Under the pieces are notes generated by a model. The model worked only from the letters and a program-made list of their open reading frames with translations, was not told the DNA's origin and made no database searches. A stretch of DNA of 64,000 nucleotides from contig JAGVRJ010000011.1 in the NCBI GenBank assembly GCA_019059635.1, positions 1,364,001 through 1,428,000 on the forward strand. Direction: 5' to 3'. The stretch comes from Proales similis (Eukaryota > Rotifera > Eurotatoria > Ploima > Proalidae). This document shows, one piece after another, positions 1,173 through 55,400 of this stretch (positions are counted from its first letter, which is position 1; each line of letters opens with the position of its first letter). The position numbers and the translations under genes were made by a program.

Positions 1173-1937
1173 CGCTTTGCTCAACTTTCAAGTTCTTTAC
1201 TAATTTTGTGCATAAACAGGGTTTGATCGAATTTTTCTAAACATTTCTCTAGATGAGGGAGAGAAAATAATTCAGGACCTTGATCTTGATTATGCAGGCT
1301 CAAGTACCTTTTTAAGCTATTAATCTTCATGAACCATAGATCTTATTTTTGCCTGTAAATCTTTTATTTAGCATGGTTTGATTCGATTACATCACGAAAA
1401 CAAAACGCACTTGACAATTGCTGGCCGGATCTTTTCGGCTTGGTGAGGTGGCTTAGACACAAACAAAACTTGTGGAGCAAATCTGTCCAAGAGATTTTCC
1501 AATGCATTTAATATTGAGATTGTCCTAAATCGTCAAACACCCAAAAATATTGAACCAGAATAAACAAACCACTGAGCTTTCTAAAAATTTTCGACCGCAG
1601 TCAAGTTATTTCCTCTAGCAATCAAGAATGTTGAGTCTTTATTCAGATCTGATCCGACTGGAATTCTGTTAATTATATCAGTGTAAGCAACCTCAAAGGG
1701 GTCGAATGCATCCAATTTTAAGATAAAGTCATATTTTTAATTTCTTAAAAGTGAGCCCAGGAATATGTCAGCAAGTTGGACAAGCCTGGTCCCCTGCTCT
1801 CATCTCTAAGTTTTATTTTCCTTTTAAAAAAATTCAGCTTTGAAATACTCTGGCTGTTGTTGGAAACTAAAAAAGTCTTTTCGGTAATCGAACTACGGAT
1901 AACTAATGCCTGGCCTGGTTGATGGTGAAGGTGAAAC
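1173..1937. other. Intergenic: copy 1 upstream region, P450 relic and copy 2 3' flank
   Basis: About 1173-1330 resembles the upstream flank of copy 2 (4183-4320; both contain a shared stretch ending ATTATGCAGGCTCAA), so promoter DNA was duplicated with the gene. About 1371-1510 matches the 3' end of copy 3 in broken form (separate entry). From about 1511 to 1937 I see no gene, only AT-rich sequence. Confidence 0.6.
1371..1510 (-). pseudogene. Decayed P450 3'-end relic
   Basis: The plus-strand block beginning GCATGGTTTGATTCGATT at 1371 matches the block at 4394 that holds the last codons of copy 3 and its 3' flank. The match resumes at about 1440 with GAGGTGGCTTAGAC, compared with GAGGTGGCTAAGAC at about 4573 next to the haem-binding exon. 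The intervening coding exon is deleted and the frame is lost. It is best explained as the trapped end of an upstream P450 gene left by tandem duplication. It has no coding capacity. Confidence 0.6.
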
Positions 1938-4182
1938 TCAGCTGCGCGCTATCAAATTGACACGGCAACCGTCTTTTGGACGCATAGTGAACGCCTCAAG
2001 TGCGTCGAACGATTGATTCGGGTCTGATTTTATGTCAAAGCTCTTGACAAGCTTGGCGAGTAGAATTTTCGCCTCGATCTAGCCGAACAGGGTGAGACAT
2101 TGAGCTGAAGCTTGAGCAGCTGTTGAAAACTTACTCGAGCAAAGTTTTGTCCGATGCAGTTGCGAGGCCCCAACCAGAACGGGAAGTATGTGTAGTTAGT
2201 GATTCTGAACAAATGAGTTGCGCAAGTCGCAGAGAGTGAATTTCGACTGCTCACGTGTTCTTCTTGGAAAAGTCGGAGCCTTCCAGAAAGCGCTCGGGAA
2301 TAAATCGATCCGACTGAGGGTAATAGGCTTCAGTGCGAGTCATGCCCATTGCCGGAATCTTGGAAGGAACACTTAAAATTCGCGTGAGAGGGTGTGAGGG
2401 GCACTATGTTAATTACGGAAATTCGGCTGCCGGCCGGTATGAACTGACCGCACAGGGTCGTGTCTTTGGTTGCTGTTCGGCCGAAGAAAATCGCCACTGG
2501 CCACATGCGCAACGCTTCTTTTATAGCACAGGAAGCGTATTCCATTTTGCTCGCCATTTCGTAAGTGATGACCGTCTGCGGACTAGGCATAAAGCTGTCG
2601 ACCTCCTCCTGCAGTCTGCGTCAATTGAATAAGAATGATGCGGTAAAGAGAGAGAAAGGGATTTAAAACCGTTTTAGAACGTCCGGATTGCGGCCAAGCT
2701 CTTGAATGCAAAAGCCCAGAGTGTTGGCGGTTGTTTCTTGTCCGGCGATGAAAAACGTCAAAAAGTCGTCGATGAGACGCTCCATTTCAAGTTGACTCTC
2801 GCCTTCACATTTTGGCGAAATGGTCTTGTGGATTTAGGTGATTCGAGATGTGGCTTACCGCTCTGCTTGATGATCGTGGTCAAGATGTCCTTTTTCTCAA
2901 AGTTCTCGTCTCGCATCTCTTCGAATCGTTGCTCGATCTTTTGTCTGGAAAAGCGGCGCAGGCTCTTGATCAGTTTCCGGTAGCCGCGAATCTTGGCGAA
3001 TTTGCTAGGCTTGAGCTAGACGAGTGAGCGAGCGAATGAGCGAGTCATTGGGCTTCGAATCTTCAACCGATCGCCTACCTCCATAAGAGGGTCGAACAAG
3101 TGCTCGTTCAGGGCCAAGAGGACATCAGATATGGCTTTGTTCAGGTCGGTGTCCTCGTTCATCAGCGAATCGACGTCCAGGCCGAGAGCGATCTTGAATT
3201 AAAAGAGAACTCCCTCTTAACTTGAGAAGCAAACGCCAAAGCACCGGCCTTTACCTGAGAAATAATGTCCATGGTCACTTTGTTGAGTTCAGGCATCAGC
3301 TCAATGTAGCCCGACTCGGAGTATTTCGAGCGCAGCTTGTCGATGAACTGGTCGGCCTTCAGATTGAATGACTCGATCGCGTTTAAGATGACGCTGAAAT
3401 TGGCCAATTTTATGCCGAGTCTCAAATCATTCGCTCGGCAACCGATGCCTACCTTCGATGGAAGCCTGGGTTGAAGAAAGCGCGTCTCAGGCGCCATTCA
3501 GCCTCGTCGATTTCAGTTACAAGGCCTTTGCCCATCAGCCTTATTCATGCTCGAAGAAATTGTCTATTCAAAAAACGGTGAGACGGCCTTACCTTTCTTT
3601 GAACGGCGCTGCTATTTTTGAGTAGGATTGATAGGCTTTGGGAAAGTTTGGCTGCTCGTCAATAGCCACCGTCTTGACAAGGACTTCCATGCAGAGTTTT
3701 TTAATAAAAACGGTTTTATAGTTGTACCTTGATTCCATCAGGATCGTTGACAATAATCAGCACTTCTCCCAGAAGTTGAACTTTGTAAATGGGACCGAAA
3801 ACCTTTGACCTGAATGTAAATTGAAAGGGCAAAATCTTTTTTAGTTTTGAATGGTTTAAAACGAATGATTACCATTCAATGAGGAGATTCGAAAACTTGC
3901 CGCCCTTTTTAATTTCTGCCATCAGTTGGCTGTAGTTGCCAAAAATAAAGCCAGACAGTCTTTCAGTGAGAAAGGCATAAAGTGTTCGTTTTGACCCTAT
4001 TTGAATGATTCGGGATGGAGTCTGGTTTAGATTTACCCACTGGCAGCCGGACCAGGCAAATGCTTGTACTTGCGCAAATGTCTGTAGCGTCTCACAACGA
4101 AATAGGCTAAGGCGGTCGAGCCGACGGCCAGAAGGGCTACGCCGATCTGGGCCGCTCTTGAAGCAGCCAGTTGTCTAAGCAT
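1938..4182 (-). CDS. CYP46: CYP46-like cytochrome P450, copy 2 (complete)
   Basis: Full-length microsomal P450 of about 500 residues in roughly a dozen exons. The start at 4180-4182 gives MLRQLAASRAAQIG, then a hydrophobic anchor and a PGPAA hinge. The I-helix exon reads FLTFFIAGQETTANTLGF. The K-helix ExxR motif is in KEALRMWPVAIFF. The haem loop is FWLGPRNCIGQNFAR (FxxGxxxCxG; axial Cys present). The last exon, after an intron starting GTAAGTTTTC, ends RVNLIARS with the stop at 1938-1940. The run YTYFPFWLGPRNCIGQ closely matches the CYP46A haem region. All hallmark motifs are intact, so it is probably functional; substrate and physiological role are not inferable. An intron at 3540-3592 splits PFKER from LMGKGL; copy 3 lacks it. 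Confidence 0.9.
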
Positions 4183-17556: not shown

Positions 17557-20041
17557 TCAGTGGCGTTTGCACTCTTTGTGTTCCATTTGTCCAACTTTCA
17601 TTGGTTCGTTAATAGATGCAGTATAGCTCTATGTTTTAGAGGAAGTAGAGAAGTATTCGCAGACGAATTAAGATGCAAGATTTCACTTACGGTGCCCAAG
17701 TTGCAGACCTGATAACGCTCGACTTGTTTGTAAAACTGGTTTATCTTGCTTGTAAGTCTCTCTCCTGGCTTCAGTGCGTGCATTTTTCCCTCTTTGTCGA
17801 ATCGCACCAACTTCTCCCTGTGGGTTGTGTCACAAGTCAAGTGCAAACGACAGCTTGGTGCTGCGAATATCTTACTCTTCGAGGCTCTTGAACAACGGCT
17901 CCATCATCTCGTAAGAGAAGCCTTCAGTACAATCTAGATGGCCACGTCGTCTCGGGTAGTAGAAGGCAAGCACGATACTATTTTTTATTGGCAGTGAATG
18001 CAAGACTTGGAAATTTCCGAAAAAGATGGCTCAGGTGGTTACCACTGAAATGAATAAATTAGAAAAGGGAAATGGAGAAACAGTCAGAGAAAGGCCAACT
18101 CACCATTTCCTCGCGCGTAGACAGTCCTCCCTTTAAAAAGCCGGTTACTCTTTGGTCTCAATAAACAAGCCAGATCAACTCACATAGGTGAAGTCGTCTG
18201 TGCCCATGCTGTTGTACTTGCAGGTCAGTTTGAGTTGGTCGTTCTAAAAGAGGGTTATATTGCTTAGTGAACAAGTATTGCTTGAACAGAGCTAGCAAAC
18301 TCACTTTGAACATCTTGACAGGCTCAGACAAGAAGTTGAAGTATTGGTAGTTGAAGTCGTAGTACGGATTGTCTGTGATCAGAGCTTTCTCTTTTCCGTC
18401 ACGGACCAAACTCATACGAACGCTTGTTCCTCTCAAGTGTGTGTGAGGGAAAGTGGCAAAGATGTTTACTCCTCCTTCGTGTTCCAAAATATTCTAACCC
18501 AAAGATATACATGTTGAACGGTTGAAGGCTGAACTTGTCAAGGCAAATTACATTGAGACAGTCACTGCGACAGTCATAACTAAGATCGTATTCCTGGGCT
18601 TTTGGCGGAATCATGATCCCAAGAGGATCTGAGTAACCTGCAATTCCGAGCGTTCCGATCTCAATCGGTCGGTAGTACTCTGTGGCATAAAGTCTGATAC
18701 CAGATCGATCCATCAAATCTTAAAGCAAGTTTATTAATAAGTTGCAAAGCTTGTTTTCGAACATGATCGAACTTGGCTTAAGAGTTGGGTTGTCGTAGTG
18801 CATCTCCATCATAAAGTATCTGGAGGCTTCCTGACCACCTGTGGGAAGACCCATGTTCTCTGGAAAGTACATTTCCTTTGACAAGCAACTGTTAAGAATA
18901 AAATAGGTAATTTGATTTTAAAAATGAAGAAAACCATTTGTCCACCGATAGCCCAAGCGAGCTCCATTCGACCGCAATATTGCTTCACTTTCTTCCATTC
19001 TTCTAGCTGATCGAGGTTAGCAGCAGGTGGTTCGCAGGAGCCAGGCTTAGGTATTTTGCCATTCGCTAAGAACTCATCGTCGAACTGCTTGGTACACCCT
19101 GATTCGTTTCATAAATAGAAATGAATTTTCAAAAGCTTCGAACCATCTTTACCATAAAATATCCAATGATGAACGTACTGCTCATTTCCAGGCTGCACAA
19201 TTGTGTCGTACTGAAATTGAAACCCATTTGATGGACGCTATCATGTCATGTAGAGTCAGCTCGATGTTCACCTTCAGCAAGTGTCGTTTCTTCTGAGTCC
19301 ACGCCTGAGGAAGCTCAAACATCTGGCAATAGTACTCGGTGTCCAGATTCGGCTGCATTGTGGCCTAGAGCGCCCCTAAGGTTAGTCAGGGCCTGAAGAG
19401 AGGGTCGTTTGAGAATGAGTTACGTTGACGCGGAACTCGACCACCTCCATCTCGTTCATGTTGAGCTGCGGCTTGTCCTGGGAGCTGGTGAGCAGAGGCA
19501 GCACCTTGGAGCCGCGCTGCTCGTATCCGTGGTAGGTGAGCATGTTGCCTGTGAGCAGGTTCTCGCCGTACGAGTAGATGACGTACGGAGTGCCCACGCT
19601 CACGTCCATGTCCTCGCCGGTCTGGTCGCAGATCTCCACCTTGCGGGTGAACCTGGCGATCAGGTACTCGTCGCGTCTCTCGGCGTGCAGCAGGAACCAG
19701 TTCTGCACCGCGTCCACCGGCACTGTGGGCGGCTGCGTGCCTTTGATCGAGCGGTCGGTGAAGTGCACCGTGTTGTCGTCGTTGATCCAGACCACCACCA
19801 CGTCCGAGCCCTTCATGCCGCCGTTGGGCGAGAGGCCGAACGCAGCCCACTTGGTCGTGCGCACGTGGATCTCGAACTCGATGTCGGTGGTGTTGAAGTT
19901 CCAGTAGAGCTGGTAGGCCCCGTTCTTGAGCAGCTCAGCTTCGTTGCTGTAGCTCTGCGTCGCCTGCGGCAGCTTGGCCTGCACCCTCGAGACCACAGCG
20001 CATACCGCCAATGTAGCCAGCAATAGTCTGTTCATCTTCAT
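17557..20041 (-). CDS. MOXD1: MOXD1-like DOMON/copper monooxygenase, copy A
   Basis: Secretory-pathway, ascorbate- and copper-dependent hydroxylase of the dopamine beta-hydroxylase/MOXD1 family, about 570 residues; the substrate is unknown. A signal peptide (MKMNRLLLATLAVCAVVSRV) precedes a one-exon DOMON domain (about residues 25-205). Later exons carry VNATMQPNLDTEYYCQ, the CuH pair in YVHHWIFYG, the third His in MMEMHYDNP, the CuM pair in FPHTHLRGTSVRM, and GGLSTREEM with the Met ligand. The next residue, the conserved disulphide Cys, needs a 2-nt exon TG at 18043-18044; translation then continues IVLAFYYPRRRGHLDC. The C terminus is NEPMKVGQMEHKECKRH with the stop at 17557-17559. No C-terminal membrane segment is seen, so it is probably luminal or secreted. 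All copper ligands are intact. Confidence 0.88.
18043..18044 (-). other. Candidate 2-nt microexon, MOXD copy A
   Basis: On the minus strand the order is GAGGAAATG|GTGAGT...CATTTCAG|TG|GTAACC...AAAATAG|TATCGTG. Only inclusion of TG keeps frame and yields Met-Cys-Ile-Val-Leu-Ala, the family consensus at the CuM Met. Skipping it gives a frameshift and an early stop. Confidence 0.7.
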
Positions 20042-20793
20042 ATTTTCCTCTTAAACTCTCTTATTTAGTATGAGGCAACACCACCTTAGGTATTTAAATG
20101 CGCTTGCTTGTTTGCTTTGATCTTTTTTTTTTTTAAAATGTCGCCATTTAAGGAACATGGCTCAACCAGCTTTAGCCATCAGGTAATTTCTTTCCTTTTA
20201 TGGGATTGTTCTTTAGTTCGTCTTTATTTGTCTTCTTTTTGCTTTTCTTTTAAAGCAGCCTTATTCAACTTTTGCTTAATTTGGTCATTTACCTCTTTTA
20301 TGTCCTATCCTATTGAATTTTAGCAGTTCCCCTTTTCCAGTTTTTTCATGTTCTAAACCGAAATTCTAACTAAGCAAAAAACCTTTAACAAATGCCGAAT
20401 TCCTCTCTCCTGAATTCTGAGTTCCCTGATTATGAACTAGTCACAAGCTTGTGTTCTTTTGTCCTAGCTATTACTCTCATTTAGATAGAATTTCACCAAG
20501 AATTTTATTTTTTTCATTCAGCCCATTTTTTCGTCAGCCCCTTACAGCTCATTCTGTTGTGTAAGGAATGATTTACGTTAATTCAAATCGATAAAAAATC
20601 AATAACTTATCAACAAAAAAAAGACTTTAACACACAATTTATCTGCGATAATCAAAAAGCAGTGATTTGCTCTGAAATCTGGTTTTACTATTCAAGTTTG
20701 AATTTATTGTATTTCAAATTTTATGTTTGAAGTTTATGTTGGCTAAAGTTTGAATCTGAAGCAAAAGTTTGATAGAACACTTTCTGAAGGATT
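20042..20793. other. Promoter of MOXD copy A and 3' flank of copy B
   Basis: 752 bp, AT-rich with T-runs. The first about 60 bp upstream of the copy A start are almost identical to the same interval in copy B. No gene or known element beyond the TATA-like site. Confidence 0.45.
20091..20098 (-). promoter_or_regulatory. TATA-like box of MOXD copy A
   Basis: CATTTAAATACC on the minus strand, about 50 nt upstream of the ATG. The same element occurs in copy B at 23371-23378. Confidence 0.45.
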
Positions 20794-23321
20794 TTAATTG
20801 CGCTTGCACTGTTTTGTTCCGATTGTATCCACTTTCATGGGAAAGTTGACCGATACGTCAAAGTTCTTTGGTTGAAGTAATTTTTTGAAAAAATGATTTG
20901 CAATTTGAATGAGACCGAAAGTTCATCTTACATTTCCGATTATACAGACTTGACTTCGCTCAGACTCTTTGTAGAACCTATTAAGCTTGTTAGTCAGCGT
21001 CTCTCCTGGCTTCAGTGCGTGCATGTTTCCGTCTTCGTCGAATCGTACCAACTTCTCCCTGTGGGTTGTGTAACAAGGCAAGTTCATACTTCCATCATGT
21101 ATTGGGGCTTGGCCTCACAACTTACTCGTCTAGGCTCTTGAACAACGGCTCCATCGTCTCATATGAGTAACCCTCAGCACAATCGAGATGACCGGCTCGT
21201 TTTGGGTAGTAGTAGGCGAGCACGATGCTTTGTGCAGGAAATGTAAGACATTAACTTACCGGGAGAGTAAGGGCAAAAGCGTTACCACTGAAATGCATAG
21301 ATCAGAAAAGGGAAATGGAGAAACAGTCAGAGAAAGGCCAACTCACCATTTCCTCGCGCGTAGACAGTCCTCCCTTTAAAAAGCCGGTTACTCTTTGGTC
21401 TCAATAAACAAGCCAGATCAACTCACATAGGTGAAGTCGTCTGTGCCCATGCTGTTGTACTTGCAGGTCAGTTTGAGTTGGTCGTTCTAAAAGAGGGTTA
21501 TATTGCTTAGTGAACAAGTATTGCTTGAACAGAGCTAGCAAACTCACTTTGAACATCTTGACAGGCTCAGACAAGAAGTTGAAGTATTGGTAGTTGAAGT
21601 CGTAGTACGGATTGTCTGTGATGAGAGCTTTCTCTTTTCCGTCACGGACCAAACTCATACGAACGCTTGTTCCTCTCAAGTGTGTGTGAGGGAAAGTGGC
21701 AAAGATATTGATTCCTTCCTTCTCGTCCAAAACGTTCTAGGGCAAAAAAGGATAAAAAAATAAGATATTGAATATAAGACTAAAAGATATTGAAAGATAT
21801 TGAATGCAAAAACTGAAAGGATTACATTTAGACAGTCGCTGCGACAGTAAAAGTTCAAATCGTATTCTTTTGCTTTTGGCGGAATGATTATTCCCAGAGG
21901 ATCTGAAAAGCCTGCGATCGCAAGCGAGCCGATCTCAATCGGTCGGTAGTACTCTGTGCCAAAGAGTCGGATCCCAGAACGGTCCAACAAATCTACAAGC
22001 TCAGTAAGGATGGGACCAAAGAGGATAAATTCTGAGAAGACAAAACCGTACTGGGCCTCAAAGTGGGATTGTCATAGTGCATCTCAATCATGAAATATCT
22101 AGAAGCATCATGGCCACCTGTAGGTAGACCCATATTCTCTGGAAAGTACATTTCCTTAAACATAAACGTAAAAAAAACATGAAACCGTACAAAATTAGAT
22201 CAAGTAAGAACCATTTGGCTGCCGACTGCCCAGGCAAGTTCCATACGATTGCAATACTGCTTCACTTTTTTCCACTCAGCTAAAAGTTCAGGATTGGCCG
22301 CAGGCTGTTCACATGCACCCGGTTTAGGGATAGCGTTGTTGGGCAAAAACTCGTCATCGAATTTCTTGTTGCACCCTTTCATGTGAAATATCTAGAATTA
22401 AATTGTTTAGAAAGATGGTAAAGAGGCTCTCACCATACAATATCCAGTGATGAACGTACTGCTCATTTCCAGGCTGCACAATTGTGTCGTACTGAAATTG
22501 AAACCCATTTGATGGACGCTATCATGTCATGTAGTGTCAGCTCGATGTTCACCTTCAGCAAGTGGCGTTTCTTCTGAGTCCACGCCTGAGGAAGCTCAAA
22601 CATCTGGCAATAGTACTCGGTGTCCAGATTCGGCTGCATTGTGGCCTAGAGCGCCCCTAAGGTTAGTCGGGGCCTGAAGAGAGGTCATTGGAGAATAGGT
22701 TACGTTGACGCGGAACTCGACCACCTCCATCTCGTTCATGTTGAGCTGGGGCTTGTCTTGGGAGCTGGTGAGCAGAGGCAGCACCTTGGAGCCGCGCTGC
22801 TCGTATCCGTGGTAGGTGAGCATGTCGCCTCTGAGCAGGTTCTCGCCGTACGAGTAGATGACGTACGGAGTGCCCACGCTCACGTCCATGTCCTCGCCGC
22901 TCTGGTCGCAGATCTCCACCTTGCGGGTGAACCTGGCGATCAGGTACTCGTCGCGTCTCTCGGCGTGCAGCAGGAACCAGTTCTGCACCGCGTCCACCGG
23001 CACTGTGGGCGGCTGCGTGCCTTTGATCGAGCGGTCGGTGAAGTGCACCGTGTTGTCGTTGTTGATCCAAACGACCACCACGTCCGAGCCCTTCATGCCG
23101 CCGTTGGGCGAGAGGCCGAACGCAGCCCACTTGGTCGTGCGCACGTGGATCTCGAACTCGATGTCGGTGGTGTTGAAGTTCCAGTAGAGCTGGTAGGCCC
23201 CGTTCTTGAGCAGCTCAGCTTCGTTGCTGTAGCTCTGCGTCGCCTGCGGCAACTTGGCCTCCACCCTCGAGACCACAGCGCATACCGCCAATGTAGCCAG
23301 CAATAGTCTGTTCATCTTCAT
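20794..23321 (-). CDS. MOXD1: MOXD1-like DOMON/copper monooxygenase, copy B
   Basis: Closest paralogue of copy A, with the same exon plan. The signal peptide begins MKMNRLLLATLAVCAVVSRV at 23321 and the DOMON exon is nearly identical to that of A. Visible ligands include the His of EMHYDNP, FPHTHLRGTSVRM and GGLSTREEM. A 2-nt exon TG at 21286-21287 again builds the Cys codon before IVLAYYYPKRAGHLDC. The last exon reads NFDVSVNFPMKVDTIGTKQ and ends CKRN, stop at 20794-20796. The interval 21315-21705 matches copy A 18072-18463 with one or two differences, introns included, while the middle exons (21720-22440) have diverged. It is probably active. Its upstream region is shared with the divergent neurochondrin gene. 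Confidence 0.88.
21286..21287 (-). other. Candidate 2-nt microexon, MOXD copy B
   Basis: Minus strand: GAAATG|GTGAGT...CATTTCAG|TG|GTAACG...GCACAAAG|CATCGTG. TG plus C makes the Cys codon TGC (copy A makes TGT). An alternative donor farther on (CCCG|GTAAGT) would include an in-frame TAA. Confidence 0.7.
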
Positions 23322-24153
23322 ATTTTTGTCTTAAACTCTCTTATTTAGTATGAGGCAACACCATCTTAGGTATTTAAATGCACATGGTTGTTTTCTTTGA
23401 CTAACACGACACATCTTTAAAGGCCAAATGTTCAAAATCGGTTTGGTTTTTATTTACTTTGTTTTAAGTAAGCAGACTTTAGCCAAAAACTAGATTTGTT
23501 TTCAACCTTTGAGCCGTTGATGAAAGTTTCAAACCGGGTCGGGTAAATTTTAAATTTTATCTCTTTTGGGATCCGGTATCTATTTGCTCAAAATTTAAGT
23601 TCTAGAGCTGCCGGGGCTTGAAACGAAATTTCTTTTTTTTATATTTATTAATTGATGCTGATTGATGCTTGATGCTTTTAGTCCTTATTTATTTTGTTTT
23701 ATTTTAATCTTGCTTTAGTCAAATAATGAGATACGATAGATATGATGAGTTAGTTGTTGATTCATGTTCTTGACAGTTTTTGTGTAAATTTCATCTATTT
23801 CTGTTTTCGGCCTTACTAACTGCGATATTCAGATTAAGAGCAGCTTTGATCGGCAATCTGCCTTACGTTCTAGACTTTGAGGCTGTTGTTTTAAATAAAA
23901 TTTGCACTGTTGTAGAACGATTGTTTTCTCTTTTATTTGTTGGTTGACTTTTGTTTTGAGTTTCTGGGTCTTTTAGTCTTGGGTCTATATCAAAGGCCAT
24001 CGATCGAGTATTACCGCTTCTTAAGTCAGAATCTTGAAAGTTGGAGTATTATTTTTTATCGGACATGATTCTCGTCATAGTTGTTTAGGTTTGAAAGCTT
24101 AATTTTTTCTAAGTTTGCTTGTATAGGGGCCATTTCACTTGGCAATAAAGAAA
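23322..24153. promoter_or_regulatory. Divergent region between MOXD copy B and neurochondrin
   Basis: 832 bp AT-rich intergenic DNA. It holds a TATA-like element for copy B (23371-23378) and, by position, the neurochondrin promoter. No coding exon recognised. Confidence 0.45.
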
Positions 24154-25713
24154 ATGGACCAGCTTCACAAAGTTATTCTTTCGCTAGAGAAGGCTCAGAC
24201 TGACAATGAAAAGTTTGCCCTTCTGCTCATTTTGGCCCAGTTGATAAAACTGAACAAACTTGAAGAATTGGACCGGTTGCCTAAAGAAGAGAAAGAGAGC
24301 ACCTACGAGCGGCTTTTCGAGGCGATTGGTGCCAATTTTCTTGCTCGCTTGATCAGCACAAGCCAAACTGTGGAGGGCAGCTCTGCTTCCCTATACAAAT
24401 CGGTCGGCCTCAGCATTCTGAATCAGTTCGCGTCTTATCCGAAGCTTATAACCGATCCAGTAATCATGTCAAAGCTGAGCCAGATCAGCCAAGTGGCCAT
24501 CATCTGTCCGCCTATTCGCACCGAAGAGACGCAAAAGCTCAGAGAGGAAGCGTTCAAGTATTTGTTTACATTGAGTAAGCTTATTCCGGAGCATTTATGT
24601 CAAAATCTGGGCATCGGCGAGCTTCTTGTCAAACAAGTGCTTATCAACGAAGCTTTTGGTACAAACGAGCCATTCAGAGTTTGGTTCGATCCCTCGAACG
24701 AAAATTGCTCGGATGATCTGCGACTTGTCAGCTGCCGTTTGCTGGCTAGCATTTGCGAGCAGCCGAATTTAAACGAACAATCACAGCAGAGTATTCATCA
24801 AGCGTTCGCAAGTCTATTAAGTTTCATCGATTCTGATCGAACTGAGCTCAAATTCAAGCTGATCAATTATTTGAACTATCTCCTAGCAACACCGTCCACC
24901 AGGGCCTACTTTGCAACTGAAGATCAGCAGCTAAAGGCCCAATATTCGCGACATGTCTACAATATTCTAGAGCATTTGTTCAAGAGCAATTTAAAAGAGG
25001 CGTACATTGAGCTGGCGTTCGTGTTGCTCGATCAGTTTGTTCGCATTTACGAGCTTGAGAGCATCTGCTTTTACGACAGAAAAACGATCTATTTGATTGT
25101 CCACCTGCTCTGCATTCGATTGGCAACCAATCTGACCGAATGGAATCATGTGGACGAAGAAAAGATCAGCAAGATGAGCATTTTTTACTCGTTGCTTGAG
25201 CAAGTAATTGTTCTTCTCTCGGCCGCCTCGTCCTCTGGCCAATCAGAGCAGCTAATTGGCGAGCAAGAAAACGAGCCAGAGTTTGAGAGTGTGGTCAAAA
25301 TCGTAGTCGAAGCCATTCAAAGTGTGATTCTGTACGTGAAAGATTCAATAAATGGGCTTGAAAGACTCGACTTTCAATCGCGGCTCTTGCTTGCCTCAAG
25401 CATCCGTATTGTCGCTTGCTGGCTTGTACATGAGCAGCTGCTTGAAGACGAGATAATTGACATCATTTCGGGAGTAATACAGTTCAGCCGACAATTCGAC
25501 CATGAATGCAAGTCAGAAGATTCTAGCCTTGGTGATCTGATTAGTGCCGGCCTTAAAAGAATTCTACACGACGAACAAACCGAACTCAACATTCTCGAAC
25601 AGAGTCTCAGAGATCGATCCGACGATCGCGAGGCTGTTTTGATTCAGATCGATCAATCAAATGAAAAGATCCGCAATCTCCAAAGCTTTCTCAACTCTCT
25701 TCAAAATGTTTAA
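24154..25713 (+). CDS. NCDN: Neurochondrin homologue, intronless
   Basis: 519-residue helical-repeat (ARM-like) protein. The N terminus, MDQLHKVILSLEKAQTDNEK followed by FALLLILAQLIKLNKLEELD, matches the neurochondrin pattern (repeated helix; KNDSEQFAALLLVTKAVK in vertebrates). Further alpha-helical repeats continue to the C terminus. Neurochondrin is a cytosolic, membrane-associating protein linked to signalling and neurite growth in vertebrates; the role here is inferred only from homology. ATG 24154 is the first in frame. No introns, signal peptide or membrane segment are seen. The length is shorter than vertebrate NCDN (over 700 residues), so the protein is compact or C-terminally reduced. 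Confidence 0.8.
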   Translation: MDQLHKVILSLEKAQTDNEKFALLLILAQLIKLNKLEELDRLPKEEKESTYERLFEAIGANFLARLISTSQTVEGSSASLYKSVGLSILNQFASYPKLITDPVIMSKLSQISQVAIICPPIRTEETQKLREEAFKYLFTLSKLIPEHLCQNLGIGELLVKQVLINEAFGTNEPFRVWFDPSNENCSDDLRLVSCRLLASICEQPNLNEQSQQSIHQAFASLLSFIDSDRTELKFKLINYLNYLLATPSTRAYFATEDQQLKAQYSRHVYNILEHLFKSNLKEAYIELAFVLLDQFVRIYELESICFYDRKTIYLIVHLLCIRLATNLTEWNHVDEEKISKMSIFYSLLEQVIVLLSAASSSGQSEQLIGEQENEPEFESVVKIVVEAIQSVILYVKDSINGLERLDFQSRLLLASSIRIVACWLVHEQLLEDEIIDIISGVIQFSRQFDHECKSEDSSLGDLISAGLKRILHDEQTELNILEQSLRDRSDDREAVLIQIDQSNEKIRNLQSFLNSLQNV

Positions 25714-26377
25714 CCTTTCTTGACCTGTTGCAATGAAGTCGATCTACAACAATCTGAGTGTCGGTTTTCTAGTTAGATTTTGATGGATTGGGATTGTTAA
25801 GAGGGCTGGGCAGATTTTGTTCGATTTGGTGTGTAGCTGTCTCGACACTTCGAGTTCCTCTACATCAATGATTCAAGCTGGCGAAATTCTTTTTAGCTTT
25901 ATTTATTAATTCGTTTAATTAAATCTTTGTTAAATACAGTTTTGATTCAGATTAATCAGACTTTGAAGTTGGGGTAACAAGCGGACGTTGCTCCCTCAGT
26001 ATTTTAAGCCAGAAGTACACTCTTTGACACTAGCGAGTCTTGGCTACTTCATTCAGTTTTTTGATGCGTTTTTCGATTCTTACAAAGACTGGTTGAAGTA
26101 AACAATAAAAGAAAAAACTGTGCTGAAATTAACCTGTCCTGGTGCAGTGATCCTGCCAAACCATTCAACGTAGCTGACTATTATCCGCCGCAACAGAGGA
26201 TTACCACCAGTGCCTATTTAGAAATGGGAGTCAAGTTTTAAGATTTAGTATCAAAATCGGATTCTCTAGTTTATTATCCTAAAATTCGCATAAAACATTT
26301 TATGACCGCTAAAGTTGAGCTTGACTAGGTTATTGGCTAAACGCTATAAAACAACACTCGGTGTTCATTCTCTCAAG
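25714..26377. other. Gap between NCDN and the coiled-coil gene, with possible small exons
   Basis: Convergent 3' flanks. On the minus strand, about 26134-26214 is an AG...GT-bounded stretch that can read LLRRIIVSYVEWFGRITAPG. A second piece near 26040-26100 can read RIEKRIKKLNEVAKTR before a stop. The frames of the two pieces do not join cleanly, so no gene is called. Confidence 0.25.
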
Positions 26378-26992
26378 CTAATGTTTCCTCTCCATGAAAA
26401 ATGCTGTGGTGATCATAATTAAAAGAATAATGCTGCTGATCACGGAGACAATAAGACTTAGTTTTTCAGCTCTCAAAATGATTTGGTTGCTGAAAATATA
26501 CGTCTTGAACGCTTTAGGTAAAGACAATACTGCTTGAATGGCGTCTAGCGCGTATGGAACAACGCACAGAAATAGCTGATCAGAGTTCGCCCTACAAAAC
26601 ACGAATCCGACCAACTTGGCAAAGTGCAGGAATGTGTCGGTCAATGTTACAGCGTGAGCGATCTCAAAGCCACAAACTAATTAAGTAACTCAGCAGTCTC
26701 TGAAAGATTGTTGGTGAAAAAGTGAAGTGGGTTTACCTTTGATTGATAGGCCTAGGTCATTTCTGATATCTTGAATCTGTGATCTAAGCTCCTGGATATC
26801 GGCTTTCAATTCTTGGTTTTCGGCTCTCAGCTCTTGGATTTCGGCTTTCAATTCTTGAATGAGTTCTTGAATCTGCGATTGTCCTTCTGTTTGCCGATCC
26901 TTCATTTCCATCTCAGATTCCAAGTTTGTATCTTGAACTGACTTGGCTGCTTGCTTGGGAGCTTTTTGGTGGCTTTGCTTCTGCTTTTTCAT
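26378..26992 (-). CDS. Unrecognised coiled-coil, single-pass membrane protein
   Basis: Two exons joined by a 60-nt intron (26677-26736, GTAAAC...AATTAG) give about 184 residues. Exon 1 begins MKKQKQSHQKAPKQAAKS at 26992 and runs into a strongly heptad-patterned, charged coiled coil with repeated IQELRAE/NQELKAD units, ending RNDLGLSIK. Exon 2 continues VCGFEIAHAVTLTDTFLHF and ends with one hydrophobic segment, LSLIVSVISSIILLIMITTA, and a short FFMERKH tail. The layout suggests a tail-anchored-like membrane protein with a long coiled coil facing the cytosol. I recognise no family. The upstream 515 bp show no additional exon I can support, but a 5' exon is possible. Confidence 0.55.
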
Positions 26993-27507
26993 TTCTCAGC
27001 TTACTGAGCACGCTAAATTTAGAAGTTAAGCCAGTGTCAATCTAGTTTCATTGCAACTAATGCTGGTTACATTCACAGCCCATTGAAAGGCCATTTGCAA
27101 CCAGTCGAGAGACAAAGCAGAAGTTAGTTGTTCGAAGATTGCCATTTGAATCGTTTCAGTTTTCCCCTCTCATTTCCAATTCTCAAGGGTCGAAATCTTT
27201 TCTATACTTAACAATCAGAGACTTTTCTTACCTCTTGGACCCTTTTACTCTTCAGTTTCACTTGATTTGAAGAAATTTTTAAGGCTTGATCATAGTCTAG
27301 ATTACCTTCTAGATTGGTCGGAAGCTTGAAAATAGGCAACGGCTCAAAGTTTGAATTTACTGAAAATGAAGTAACTCGAGTTCAAATCGATTGACTGATT
27401 ATGCCATCTTTCAGGTTCTTTTCCAGACATTAATTCGTCAAACAAGAGGATTGTTTGCAGAGATTTTATTTTTGAATTGTTATGAAGTGATTCAATGAGG
27501 GAGCCGT
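26993..27507. other. Intergenic, nothing recognised
   Basis: 515 bp of AT-rich sequence upstream of the coiled-coil gene and downstream of MOXD copy C. No convincing exon or repeat. Confidence 0.4.
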
Positions 27508-30020
27508 TTATAAGGGAGCCGGGCAGCTATTGTTCTCGAACTCTTCGACTTTCATCGGAAAGTTAATCGTCATGTTATAATGCTTTAATAGGAAAGTCAT
27601 ATTTAGAACAAATCATCAAAATAGAGCGTGAAAAAGTTTGAATTACCCGTCCGACAGTGCAGATCTGCATTCGAGGTGTTTGCTTGTAGAACCTGTTAAA
27701 TCTACCGGTGAGTTGGTCGCCTGCATTCACGGCCTGCATTGCTCCTTGTTCGTCGAATTCAATCAAATTCTCGCTGGTTTCGAAAGCGTGAGTAAGCCGA
27801 GCTCGGATGAATAGAAGAAAAAGGAGCATTACTCTTGCAAACTTCGGTAGAACATGTACATTGCATCTCTGGTGTAGCCCTCCACGCAGTCAAGATGTCC
27901 ATTTCTCTTCGGATAGTAGTAAGTAAGAACCACACTTCCATTTTCAGAAGAATTGCGGCTGAGACTTCAATTCGAAAAGCAAGTTCGTGCTCGTCCTACC
28001 ACTAATAGAAAACATCATTTAATAAACAAGATAAAAAATGCAACGATACGCAAAAAGCAATTTTTCACTTACCATTTCCTCGCGGGTCGATAGTCCTCCC
28101 TTGACAAATCAAAATCTGCCCATTCAGCAACTCAAGGGAGCAAATGGCAATTAGCTTACGTAGGTGAACTTGTCTGTGTTCATGCTATTGTACTTGCAGG
28201 TCAGCTTGATTTGATCATCCTTCATCCAAGTTGATGAGTATCAAACTTCTTTTACGGCGCCGCACGGGTCATTAGGCTACCTTGACCATTTTGACGGGCT
28301 CTGGTGCAAAGTTAAAGTACTGGTAGTTGAAATCGTAGTAAGGATTGTCGGTGATCAGAGCAGTTTCTTTTCCGTGCTGAACCAAGCTCATTCTGACACT
28401 TGTTCCTTTCAGATGCGTGTGCGGGAATGTAGCGAAAATGTTGATTTCTTGATTGTCTTTGACCAAATGCTTTTTAAAGGAAAAGTTTAAAAACTGGCTG
28501 AAAATGCTGAAGACGGACTCACTTGGAGACAGTCACTTCGGCAATAGTAGTTAAGATCAAAGTCCTCAGCTTTGGGGGGAATCACGATACCTTGCGGATC
28601 AGAAAAGCTGGCCACCACAAATGAGCCAATTTCAATTTCTCTATAGTTCTGGGTGCCATACAGCCGAATGCCCGATTGGTCTGTGATGCCTTAAAAGGTA
28701 AATGAATAGGTCAATTCGGATCTAATTTTGCTATCTTATTCAAATCTTACTCGGCTGAAGGGTTGGATTGTCATAATGCATTTCAAGCATAAAGTACTTG
28801 GAGCCCTCGTCGCCGCCGGCAGGCAAGCCCATTCCATCAGGAAAGTACATTTCCTTTAGAAGCAAGTTTTTCAATCTTAGGAAAAAAACCCAGTTCTCAG
28901 AAAAGGTGTTGAAACGATTTAACTTCCAACAGCCCAGCCGAGCTCCATTCGAGTGCAGTATCCTTTGACCGCTCTCCATTGAGCTAGAATTTCTTGATCA
29001 ACAGCCGGAGCTTCACAGGCACCTGCTTTAGGCTTTCCGTATTTGTTCAAGTACTCTTGTTCAAATTTTTCCGAGCAGCCTTCACAGCACTATTGATGTT
29101 TGACTCTTAAACTTAATCTGGCTTGGACAAGCTTACCGTAGAGTATCCAATGGTGGACATATTTCTCGTTGCCTGGCTGCACAATTGTATCGTACTGCAA
29201 AGAGAAAGTATTTTTAAAAGTTGAAGATTCTGGTGGAGTGTGAATCTGGCACCTTTAGCAGATGCCGCTTCTTCAGGGACCAAGCTTCAGGCAGCTGGAA
29301 CAGCTCACAGTAGTACTCGGTGTCTGAGTTGGGCTGCATAGTTGCCTTCAATACAATCGTGTGGTTGAAAGCAAAAAGCCTAGGCTTGTAGATATAGCTT
29401 ACATTGACCCGGAACTCGACCAACTCTATCTCGTTCATGTTTAGCGGAACCTTTTCCTTGAAGCTGGTGATCAAGGGCAGCACCTTGGAGCCACGCTGAA
29501 GATAACCGTGATAAGTCAACAAGTTGCCTTGAATTAATTTCTCGCCGTAAGAGTAGATGACGTAGGGCGTTCCGATGGGAATGTCCATGTCCTCGCCGGT
29601 CTGGTCGCAGATCTCCACCTTGCGGGTGAACCTGGCGATCAGGTACTCGTTGCGTCTCTCGGCGTGCAGCAGGAACCAGTTCTGCACCGCGTCCACCGGC
29701 ACTGTGGGCGGCTGCGTGCCTTTGATCGAGCGGTCGGTGAAGTGCACCGTGTTGTCGTCGTTGATCCAAACGACCACCACGTCCGAGCCCTTCATGCCGC
29801 CGTTGGGCGAGAGGCCGAACGCAGCCCACTTGGTCGTGCGCACGTGGATCTCGAACTCGATGTCGGTGGTGTTGAAGTTCCAGTAGAGCTGGTAGGCCCC
29901 GTTCTTGAGCAGCTCAGCTTCGTTGCTGTAGCTCTGCGTCGGCTGCGGCAGCTCGCACTGCACATTCAGGGCCAATAGGCCTATTGAAGCAATAAGAAAA
30001 AGAAATTTCATATGTTGCAT
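27508..30020 (-). CDS. MOXD1: MOXD1-like DOMON/copper monooxygenase, copy C
   Basis: Third family member, diverged from A and B outside the DOMON exon. The start at 30018-30020 reads MQHMKFLFLIASIGLLAL (signal peptide). The DOMON part from about 29581 to 29945 is almost identical in DNA to copies A and B. Diverged exons still carry YVHHWILYG, the His of MLEMHYDNP, FPHTHLKGTSVRM and the EEM ligand. A 2-nt exon TG at 28000-28001 builds the Cys before VVLTYYYPKRNGHLDC. The last exon is HYNMTINFPMKVEEFENNSC and ends PAPL, stop at 27508-27510. A TATA box lies only 30 nt upstream of the ATG. The catalytic set is intact; the substrate is unknown. Confidence 0.87.
28000..28001 (-). other. Candidate 2-nt microexon, MOXD copy C
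   Basis: Minus strand: GAAATG|GTAAGT...TTCTATTAG|TG|GTAGGA...ATGGAAG|TGTGGTTC. The flanking introns are unrelated in sequence to those of A and B, yet AG|TG|GTA and the resulting Met-Cys are conserved. Confidence 0.68.
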
Positions 30021-51600: not shown

Positions 51601-52442
51601 CGTTTCTATTTTAGCGTTTCTTGGCGCTCGCCTCGGTGCATAAACCGACCCGATCTATCGATCGTCGCCTCGCGATCGATAAATTCTTAATTATTTTTCT
51701 GCGAGTTGCTTCTTGGGCCCCACTTGCGCAACCTGGAATGGTTCCCTAACCTGCTGCTCATGGTGGTGGTCGTCATCAATCATTCAGACTCGTTCAGTCA
51801 TCTTGATCTTAATCCTAATCGCCAGTGCGGCATTGACCGCCTCTCCTACTCTAATTTGCATATTCCGGCACCGAATACGATAAGCGATAGAGGCACAGTT
51901 CGCTCCAGCTGAGCGAAAGTTCATCATCATCATCGACTCGACTCGAGCTTCTACTACTACTACTAATAACTACTGCTCTACTCTTGTTGATGGCGGCATC
52001 CGGCACCTCCGCATGTGGCATGTCCGGCGCTAATTGGATTTGGCGTCACGGGCGCAACATGTGGCCGCTGGCCGGCCAGCCGTCTTCTGAATGTCAATAT
52101 TTGCCATTAAATTACGAGCCGTCACGCATCAAGGCCACGTAGAAGCGCGTGACCACCATACGCTCTATGGCGAGCCATTCTTGTCCATTATACAATCGCG
52201 CTGCTTAACGGACCGCCCCCTTTCCTGCATACATTCACCGCCGGTCATGTTTATTGGATCGGACACTTGTCCGTCCTATCTATTTTCGCTTACACACACA
52301 CACACACACCATCGACATGCACTTGACCACTCTCGCTGCTTAACTCCCTCTCTCTCTCTTCGCTCGTCTCTATTCATTTTGACTCTTCACATGACCTTTG
52401 TGTGCCCTAACAGTTTAGATTCGGAGATGCGAAAGTTTTAGG
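45620..52442. other. 6.8-kb desert upstream of Robo, probable regulatory domain
   Basis: No supported exon on either strand. Octamers occur at 46642, 48345 and 51854, with many ATTA cores (for example ATTAATT runs near 47295), GA/CT tracts (46175-46245, 47765-47785, 49580), a GTCA tetranucleotide run (about 47524-47550), a CCG run (about 48807-48825) and a short TC tract with TG/CA repeats (50855, 52295). Its 3' end abuts the Robo start. The Robo 5' UTR and possible non-coding first exons must lie here but cannot be delimited. Confidence 0.45.
47524..47551 (+). repeat. GTCA tetranucleotide repeat
   Basis: Six or seven GTCA units with one GGCA variant. Confidence 0.8.
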
Positions 52443-55400
52443 ATGCGAAGGAGACCAATGAGTAAAGTGGCTTCAACGTTACTAGTGTTGGCCTCTGTCG
52501 TGCAAGCTCTTGCGGACGCCGGCAACGCGCCTCGAATAGAACAGCATCCAAACAGTGTACTGGTGAATGCCAGCGACCCCGTCACACTAGAATGCCGAGC
52601 GAGCGGTCTGCCCGAGCCGCGCATCTCATGGTACAAGGACGGAGAAAAGATCGATCTCGATCTGCGCTCCGACCATTTCGCACTGATTCATCACTCGAAC
52701 TTGTTCATCTACGCGGCCAAACTGGGCAAGAACTCGGACGCGGGCGTCTACAGATGCCAGGCAGAGAACGAGCACGGACTCGCCGCGAGTCGAAACGCCA
52801 CTCTCTCGATAGCCTACCTCAAGCCGGACTTTCGCGCCATTCCTGAGAGTCGACAAGTGAGCTCGGGCGCGCGCGTGCTAATGAGCTGCGTAGCGCCCAA
52901 GGGCGAGCCGGAGCCGCGACTTTCCTGGGAGAAGAACGGCGTGCCACTTGGCTTGCCCAGCTCGAGCGAGTACTCGATGCTGCCCAACGGCTCGCTGTTG
53001 ATCGCCAACGCCAGCGTCACCGACAACGGCGAGTACGTCTGCGTGGCCGAGAACGAGGCCGGCCTGAGGCGATCGCAAGCCGCCTATCTGAACGTATTCG
53101 AGCCGCCCTCGTTCACCGTCGAGCCCAAGACGGGCAAATACGCCATTCACTCACGAGTTACGCTCACTTGCTCGGCGACCGGCTTTCCAAGGCCAACCAT
53201 CGAGTGGAAACGGGACGGGTCGCTCGACCGACTGCCGGTCAAGGCGGTCATCACCGACGACTGGTCTCTGGTCCTGCCTGACATTCAGCTCGAAGACGAA
53301 GGCGAGTACACTTGTGTGGCGAGCAACCACTTGTCGAGCATCGAGGCGCGCGCCTACCTGATCGTGTACCAGGCGCCGGAGTTTGTCAAGCCTCTGGCCA
53401 ACGTCACAGTCGGAATCGAATCCAAATCGCTCACGATCGAGTGCAACGCCCGAGGGCGTCCTACTCCCGTCATCTACTGGGCCAGATCGGCCGAGAGTCC
53501 CGGCAGCGCAGTGACCTCTCAGGACGATTTCATAATTCTGGACAACGGCAATCTGTTCATCGAGCGCCTAAGTCCCAAATACGAAGGCACCTATTTGTGC
53601 GAGGCGAGCAACGAGCACGGAAGTGTCCAGAGTCAAACACACGTCAAAGTGAAGCCTTTAAATGGTCGCTCGCCGCCCTACGTTATCTACGCTCCGCAGA
53701 ACCAGACCATACCGCTGAACACGCAGGCCATGCTCGAGTGCGTGTCTGGCGGAGGAGCGACTCGCACTCGCTGGGTCAAAGACGACGCACCTCTGGCAGC
53801 CGGCTCGCTCAAGTACAGACAGCTCGACTCGGGCGCCTTGCTCATCAATTCTGTGCAGCCTGCCGACTCTGGCTTCTACAAGTGTGTAGTCTCCAATGAG
53901 ATCGGACAAACCGAGTCCATACCGGCCTACTTGAACGTGCAAGATCCGAGCAACGAGTACATTGAGTTCAAACGCAGCTATGACACGTCCGCTCTGCCCT
54001 CGGCGCCCACAAGGCCAACAGTGCTGCAGATCGGCATCGACTCGGTGGCCATTGAGTGGAAGCCAAGCGCGCACACTGGCCACTCTCAGTTGGCCGCATT
54101 CTCCATCGAGTACTACTCGCCCGAGTGGGGCGACGAAATGAACGGCTGGCGACCTCTGGGCGTCCAAGTGCCCGCTCACTTGGACCGATTTCAGATTCGC
54201 GGCCTCAAATCGGACACTCACTACATGTTCATGGTTAGAGGCAGGAACGAGCAAGGCTTCGGCGCGCCAAGCGAGCCGTCAGATCTGGTCAAGACCATGT
54301 TCGAGCCGGCGCTGCTGCTCGATCGGACGCACTCGTCGCAGGAGTTGATCGAGAAAGCGCTCACCGGCGAGATAGTGCAGCTGAACGAGCCGCCCCAGGT
54401 TCTCTCGTCGACTGCGGTCAACATTTCCTGGACCATATTCAAGTCGGCCTATCTGATCGAGGGCTTCTCGCTCAAGTATCGGCCCATCGGCGCCGACAAT
54501 TACAAGGTCGACGTAATAGCCAACCAGCAGCCGTCGCGATCATTCTACGTCCTGCGCAATCTAAAGCAGTTCACCACCTACGAGATCATGCTGGAGCCGT
54601 TCAGCGGCCAAGTGCGCGGCTCCGAGTCCAATGTGGTCCAAGTGAAAACTCTCGAGGACGCGCCCACTCAGAGCCCCACTCAAATTCAAGTTGAACTAAC
54701 CAGCGTGACGAGCGTGTCCATTCGATGGCAACCGCCGCCGGACGAACACCTCAACGGCATCATTCTCGGCTACAAGATCTCGTGTCTGTGCAACGAGAGC
54801 GCCTACGACGTTCACGTGAAAGCCAACTCGACCACTCGGGCGATCATATTGGGCAACCTGCGCACCGGCTACAAGTATTGCATTCACGTGGCCGCGTTCA
54901 ATCGGGCCGGAACGAGCCCCGGCACGAGTCCCAAGTGTGTTGAGACTACCGACGAGTACTTGGCGGCGATCAGCGAGCAAACAAGCCGAGCCAAGTTGAA
55001 CGAGCTCACAGGCAATACCACAACCTGGATCGTGACCGCCGCTTCTCTGCTCGCCACTCTGGTCTTGTTCGCGCTCTGCTTTCTGTTGTGCACTCGCTCT
55101 CGGCTGCGCTCAGGGGGCAAACAGGCGCCGGCCTACGTGGCCGCATCCAACGACTGCACGCTCGGTCATGTGCCTCACAAAATGGACAGCGGCAATCGCT
55201 ACAAACTGGTCAACGACGCCATCTGGCTAGACACTCTAAACTCAAACAGCAACCAGTCGTCAAGCAATCCGGACTGCTGCTGTTTGCCCGAGCTGCCGCA
55301 TCAGCTATTCGCCAACCAGAGCTCGAAAATGACCAGCGAGGCCGGCCTGTGCACTCTTGAGCACAAGCAGCGGTCCAATCTGAACGCGTCCACTCGATCC

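Follow-up and report, generated by a model that had tools for sequence, protein, structure and literature searches.

A predicted two-nucleotide coding exon at the active-site Met-Cys of four MOXD1-like genes in the rotifer Proales similis

Introduction

Exons of a single nucleotide (nt) are documented in plants and a fungus (PMC4674806, PMC8831610, PMC12940212). Here we describe a candidate 2-nt coding exon, TG, in three MOXD1-like genes (copies A, B and C) on a 64,000-nt stretch of DNA from the rotifer Proales similis (GenBank assembly GCA_019059635.1, contig JAGVRJ010000011.1, positions 1,364,001 to 1,428,000; hereafter the window, whose numbering is used for positions) and in a fourth copy elsewhere in the genome. 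Like the 1-nt APC11 exon of Arabidopsis and other land plants, it is shorter than 3 nt, lies between two introns and is needed for the reading frame (PMC4674806, PMC8831610), and two-step splicing under intron definition has been proposed for the APC11 exon (PMC4674806). Unlike TG, that exon counts one nucleotide, belongs to plants and has been validated with RNA, whereas the exon of P. similis counts two, belongs to an animal and is known from genomic sequence. The 1-nt exon of VPS55 in land plants is likewise tiny, long conserved and missed by annotations (PMC8831610). It is described as absent from one duplicate or isoform in some lineages, whereas TG is present, and would be included, in all four genes of its clade. 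The reasoning used here resembles that applied to the 1-nt exon of Fusarium CYP621A, where a phase mismatch in a conserved motif, an intronless relative as length marker and a gap of about twice the usual intron length served as arguments (PMC12940212). That case rests on fungal orthologues and was confirmed with reads from the Sequence Read Archive, whereas ours is built on animal paralogues as read from the genome. Phrase searches for 2-nt exons returned no clear precedent in the collection of papers searched.

Recursive splice sites of Drosophila are generally taken to leave zero nucleotides in the messenger RNA (mRNA). The TG exon falls outside this class of zero-nucleotide exons, as its two nucleotides are required for both the frame and the Cys. 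It does share with these sites, also called ratchet points, an adjoining acceptor and donor that would be used successively (PMC6110457, PMC8605326), whereas ratchet points are described from long introns and the introns beside TG are about 60 nt, with two nucleotides that must stay in the mRNA. Neuronal microexons of the SRRM4 type measure 3-27 nt (PMC7935315) and are often multiples of three (PMC4674806). TG does not belong to them either: it has 2 nt, is not a multiple of three and breaks the frame when skipped. It is an animal case of a known kind of ultra-small exon, set apart by its animal host, its four paralogues and its position in an active site. An earlier reading of the window (the original prediction) placed a 2-nt exon near the physical limit for exon definition; such an exon does not mark the limit of splicing, given the 1-nt exons in the reports cited above.

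Results

TG between exons 9 and 11 of the MOXD1-like genes

Spliced alignment gave copies A, B and C a 12-exon structure (Table 1). The fourth copy (locus L046) has the same gene structure and carries TG at C8:1,724,915-1,724,916 on contig C8 (3585-3586 of the reverse-complemented locus). In copies A, B and C, exon 9 closes in phase 0 after the ATG of the CuM ligand and exon 11 starts in phase 2. An AG acceptor and a GT donor directly abut the two nucleotides in four of four genes (AG-TG-GT), and splicing them in gives the junctions ATG-TG-T (A), ATG-TG-C (B), ATG-TG-T (C) and ATG-TG-C (fourth copy), which read Met-Cys each time. The original prediction had located TG exactly in copies A, B and C, each time as AG-TG-GTA; the three sites are on the minus strand. 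Its phases, the frameshift and stop it foresaw on skipping (reproduced by path enumeration) and its restoration of Met-Cys by TG+T, TG+C and TG+T, all Cys codons, also proved right.

These results indicate that exon 10 of the four genes is very probably a real 2-nt coding exon, which supplies two-thirds of the codon for the Cys after the CuM Met. From the frame and motif, and from the conservation and selection described below, we infer that TG would be spliced in, and constitutively so.

Table 1 Features of the three MOXD1-like copies in the window (plus sign or hyphen in a codon or junction marks the splice point)
Feature	Position	Strand	Description
Copy A, MOXD1-like gene	17557..20041	-	12 modelled exons 20041-17691 plus last exon, stop near 17557, by eye
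Copy A exon 9	18104..18130	-	27 nt, GGLSTREEM, phase-0 end at CuM Met
Copy A intron 9	18045..18103	-	59 nt, GTGAGT...TTTCAG
Copy A exon 10	18043..18044	-	2-nt TG, codon TG+T = Cys; acceptor CATTTCAG, donor GTAACC
Copy A intron 10	17978..18042	-	65 nt, GTAACC...AAATAG
Copy A exon 11	17876..17977	-	102 nt, phase-2 start, T-IVLAFYYPRRR
Copy B, MOXD1-like gene	20794..23321	-	12 modelled exons 23321-20932 plus last exon, stop near 20794, by eye
Copy B exon 9	21347..21373	-	GGLSTREEM
Copy B intron 9	21288..21346	-	59 nt
Copy B exon 10	21286..21287	-	2-nt TG, codon TG+C = Cys; donor GTAACG
Copy B intron 10	21228..21285	-	58 nt
Copy B exon 11	21126..21227	-	C-IVLAYYYPKRA
Copy C, MOXD1-like gene	27508..30011	-	modelled exons 30011-27650 plus last exon, stop near 27508, by eye
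Copy C exon 9	28073..28099	-	GGLSTREEM
Copy C intron 9	28002..28072	-	71 nt
Copy C exon 10	28000..28001	-	2-nt TG, codon TG+T = Cys; donor GTAGGA
Copy C intron 10	27935..27999	-	65 nt
Copy C exon 11	27833..27934	-	T-VVLTYYYPKRN

Other ways to join exon 9 to exon 11

For the four genes we enumerated the in-frame GT-AG paths that link exon 9 with exon 11, include YYP and have one intron or two, none shorter than 40 nt. One-intron paths numbered 14 (five in A, one in B, three in C and five in the fourth copy); the Met ligand was kept in nine of them, and Glu-Met-Cys (EMC) resulted from none of the 14. Among the 31 two-intron paths (11 in A, four in B, two in C and 14 in the fourth copy), five gave EMC and all five used TG. 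In copy A, TG was the single enumerated GT-AG solution that yielded EMC, and copy C had two such paths, distinguished by their last acceptor. Single joins at the conserved length with any dinucleotides gave EMC in 0 of 40 per gene. A single intron, with GT-AG or other dinucleotides, was therefore rejected within the tested break points, and a longer microexon in place of TG was rejected because all enumerated EMC paths used TG. TG is needed for frame and motif alike: skipping it caused a frameshift and a stop in four of four genes, and no tested path or join produced EMC unless it contained TG.

The Met-Cys of copy A was part of the first alignment query, which biased it. The alignments on the four genes were therefore repeated with 14 other query proteins, of which four were paralogues and ten were database proteins from outside this genome. 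The TG exon was selected in 54 of 56 query-gene runs, and in 39 of the 40 runs with the ten outside proteins. These ten queries yielded 866 internal core exon calls over ten genes, and just three calls other than TG measured 12 nt or less: one 4-nt exon called twice in L045 and one 3-nt exon called once in the fourth copy.

The encoded enzyme and its Met-Cys site

The domains DOMON, Cu2_monooxygen and Cu2_monoox_C scored above their cut-offs in copies A and C, the two of the four proteins that were scanned, which bears out the predicted MOXD1-like assignment. Copy A was aligned with 13 further proteins, six of them from named animals; all 13 have EMC, and H251, H252, H337, H418, H420, M493, C472 and C494 are invariant. 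The same motifs, namely HH plus H for the CuH ligands, HxH plus M for the CuM ligands and the Cys pair, were recognised by eye in copy B, copy C and the fourth copy, and EMC also stood in the aligned DBH and PHM structures. Human DBH binds CuM through His412, His414 and Met487 and has a disulphide between C466 and C488 (PMC4846438). The Cys-Cys spacing in the DBH alignment (4zel) is 22 residues, equal to that counted by hand in the four spliced copies, and the partner Cys is retained in all four genes. The TG exon would complete one half of a conserved disulphide next to a copper ligand; that such a bond forms, as the original prediction stated, is supported by this homology to DBH.

Chance, divergence and selection

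To each gap, 4000 dinucleotide shuffles were applied with the first and last six bases held and both introns at least 50 nt long. Any AG-NN-GT appeared at frequencies of 0.020 (A), 0.021 (B), 0.079 (C) and 0.093 (fourth copy), that is, in 2-9% of shuffles, and the form alone is therefore weak evidence. The exact AGTGGT appeared at 0.0010, 0.0022, 0.0015 and 0.0055, respectively, and a coincidental AG-NN-GT was rejected on these frequencies.

Intron 9 was 95% identical between copies A and B, and intron 10 was 51% identical. Outside this pair, intron identity was 22-49%, with shuffled-control means of 29-39%; the introns of copy C have strongly diverged from those of A and B, as the original prediction held, although its word "unrelated" was slightly too strong. 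Synonymous divergence (dS) between A and B was about 1.0 in exons 2-6, 0.40 in exons 7-12 and 0.04 in exon 1, and exon 1 gave 0.26 between A and C. This pattern in copies A and B (17876-20041 and 21126-23321) looks like patchy gene conversion, with exon 1 also close in C. Comparisons of the fourth copy with A, B and C were saturated at synonymous sites. The ratio of nonsynonymous to synonymous divergence (dN/dS) over the whole length was 0.16 (A-B), 0.18 (A-C) and 0.14 (B-C), with single segments from 0.08 to 0.41. These values indicate that the four-gene clade is under purifying selection, and the comparison of introns and exons indicates that the TG exon has outlasted extensive change in the surrounding sequence.

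Intron lengths and splice-site strength

The introns flanking TG measured 58-71 nt in the four genes. The 91 introns kept from the well-aligned core of ten gene models, eight TG-flanking introns among them, spanned 49-89 nt with a median of 60, and the gap read as one merged intron (119-138 nt) exceeded every one of these. Dropped from the set were dubious introns of 34 and 41 nt in L045 and 40 nt in L048, an intron of 85 nt in L047 and all of L039. Introns in gene ends that aligned poorly were likewise left out; many exceeded 100 nt, and the longest measured 1554 nt. These long gene-end introns probably join spurious end exons; longer true introns may exist elsewhere.

Splice sites were scored with matrices built from 83 other introns. 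For A, B, C and the fourth copy, donor scores were 7.8, 7.8, 9.6 and 7.4 for intron 9 versus 4.8, 3.6, 4.8 and 5.6 for intron 10, and acceptor scores were 7.4, 5.3, 5.0 and 6.3 versus 2.6, 4.6, 3.0 and 4.0. Intron 9 was the stronger at both donor and acceptor in four of four genes. The nine-base donor of intron 10 was identical before and after the removal of intron 9 in all four genes, because exon 9 and intron 9 both end in G. The acceptor stretch of intron 9 was likewise unchanged once intron 10 was removed.

The gene family in the genome

The assembly (32,716,893 bases, 15 contigs) was searched by domain and by protein, and grouping the matches by locus gave a family of at least 14 genes. 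TG occurs in four of these 14, and one intron lies at or beside Met-Cys in two: in L044 it is of phase 0, immediately before the Met (L044 3800-3994), and in L048 of phase 1, within the Cys codon (L048 reverse complement 3303-3469). The remaining eight are uninterrupted there. EMC stands in one open frame in L039, L040, L041, L042, L043, L045 and L047 (L041 and L042 being read from open frames). The eighth, L049, lacks several copper ligands, with ALC in place of EMC and PHTYS in place of PHTHL, and it is probably a non-catalytic family member. This DBH-family relative is located at 1464-3304 (C1:756968-758198).

In a tree of 25 rows, A, B, C and the fourth copy formed one clade with support 100/100, nested in a 97/96 group with the database proteins P0001, P0002, P0004 and P0006. 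The simplest reading of this tree is a single origin of the TG exon on the stem of the four-gene clade. Family introns occupy four positions within about 6 nt of the Met-Cys codons. Those of L044 and L048 lie at different spots a few bases from the same Met-Cys, as if the site attracted introns. The 1-nt exon of Fusarium CYP621A has been suggested to stem from a cryptic exon captured inside a single intron (PMC12940212). For the TG exon we would suggest two intron gains rather than such a capture, because each flanking intron is of full normal length and none of the 91 kept introns reaches 100 nt.

Other features of the window

In copy C, the reading frame through exons 4-5 (28751-28990, minus strand) hits a stop after GWAVGS. 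The canonical join chosen was GWA-EMYFPDG, by way of a weak donor (GTTGGA) and without the VGSQM-like residues of A and B. A second tiny exon was tried as an explanation of this exon 4/5 junction, and no convincing solution was found. The window also contains a HAT1 gene, whose best match bearing an organism's name, among the matches listed, is from the rotifer Brachionus calyciflorus. A 528-residue open frame (24127-25713, plus strand) lies between copies B and C on the strand opposite to theirs. A COX1 search of the assembly gave no match, and the assembly probably lacks the mitochondrial genome. A single-exon open frame of 1396 residues (52419-56609, plus strand), which by eye resembles repeated immunoglobulin and fibronectin-type stretches, shares the window with the intron-rich MOXD1-like genes.

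Discussion

Several points weigh against reading TG as an exon, or limit what it can carry. Two of the 56 runs missed TG (L043 on the fourth copy and P0008 on C), and in others its margin was narrow, at 1 (P0009 on C), 5 (L043 on C) or 8 score units (L040 and L045 on the fourth copy). Intron 10 has weak splice sites, with donor percentiles of 0.11-0.36 and acceptor percentiles of 0.07-0.27. The kept introns came from GT-AG-constrained models and a core chosen by hand, and the protein search found no sequence above 44% identity to these proteins. Some similarity may also remain between the diverged introns, since eight of the ten comparisons outside the A-B pair lie 8-15 points above the control mean, with two below it. 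Exons of 1-2 nt made up most of the false discoveries reported by the authors of MicroExonator (PMC7821500); this concerns read mapping, yet it shows how easily exons of that size arise by chance. The case for the TG exon does not rest on read mapping.

The number of cases is reduced as well. Copies A and B are not independent and count once, because their intron 9 is 95% identical and their dS pattern is like that of patchy gene conversion. The three paralogues of the original prediction are all present, but the genome holds four such genes in all, with L046, and the pair A-B cannot be counted twice. The sequence comparisons indicate two independent cases inside the window and three independent lineages with the fourth copy, and the order of splicing discussed below likewise draws on four genes of which three are independent. 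Across these four genes and three lineages, TG is conserved among homologues whose introns diverge.

Instead of TG, one larger intron could lead from exon 9, as modelled or in an extended form, straight to exon 11, and the enzymes would then have lost the Cys or carry an insertion there. The 14 one-intron paths show that in-frame joins of this kind exist, and nine of them even retain the Met ligand, but none restores EMC and copy B has no path that retains the ligand at all. In the listed joins of the conserved length that keep GGLSTREEM, the Met is followed by Ser, Gly or Val. Such an intron would also be longer than any of the 91 kept, and the partner Cys is still there in four genes, which together make this explanation highly improbable. 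It is scarcely credible that the copies are pseudogenes in which AG-TG-GT is a relic or a coincidence: the odd exon 4/5 junction of copy C, where no enumerated canonical join retains the VGSQM-like residues, fits decay, but purifying selection, retained copper ligands and a common exon structure in four genes argue the other way, as does a shuffle frequency of at most 0.0055 in each copy. A real but regulated exon deserves more weight, although we regard it as unlikely. Skipping would then lead to a frameshift and nonsense-mediated decay, and inclusion would tune the enzyme level; the premature stop on skipping in four of four genes and the weak sites of intron 10 are compatible with this, and the 1-nt exons of plants are described as alternative in some lineages, for VPS55 in Selaginella and hornworts and for APC11 in a moss (PMC8831610). 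The APC11 exon of Arabidopsis, on the other hand, is called constitutive (PMC4674806), and the TG genes carry no sequence sign of regulation.

For a real and constitutive TG exon, we propose stepwise, intron-defined splicing in which the unit of recognition would be each flanking intron (58-71 nt), since a 2-nt exon offers hardly enough room for U1 and the 3' splice-site factors at once. Intron 9, with the stronger donor and acceptor, would be removed first, joining ATG to TG. The donor of intron 10 would then be unchanged (GTG-GTA...), so the same U1 site would serve the second step. We lean towards this order because the sites of intron 9 are stronger in four of four genes and the donor of intron 10 is unaltered. 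The reverse, with intron 10 removed before intron 9, is reported for potato invertase and its 9-nt exon, a precedent cited in PMC4674806, and would leave the acceptor stretch of intron 9 unchanged; the weaker donor and acceptor of intron 10 in all four genes make it doubtful. The fuller proposal, to which we give even odds, is that a 2-nt exon in the catalytic centre of an enzyme family has been kept constitutive in this animal, for long enough that synonymous sites became saturated between copies, through an obligate order in which the strong upstream intron goes first and hands an unchanged donor to the weak downstream one.

If confirmed, TG would be an animal exon shorter than 3 nt backed by four paralogues, in a genome whose uninterrupted paralogues serve as length markers, and it would mean that a 2-nt exon can stay stable over long times. 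The roughly 130 nt around it offer a compact system for the removal, and the order of removal, of two introns 2 nt apart. These genes also suggest that ordinary gene prediction would break in such cases precisely at the catalytic residue.

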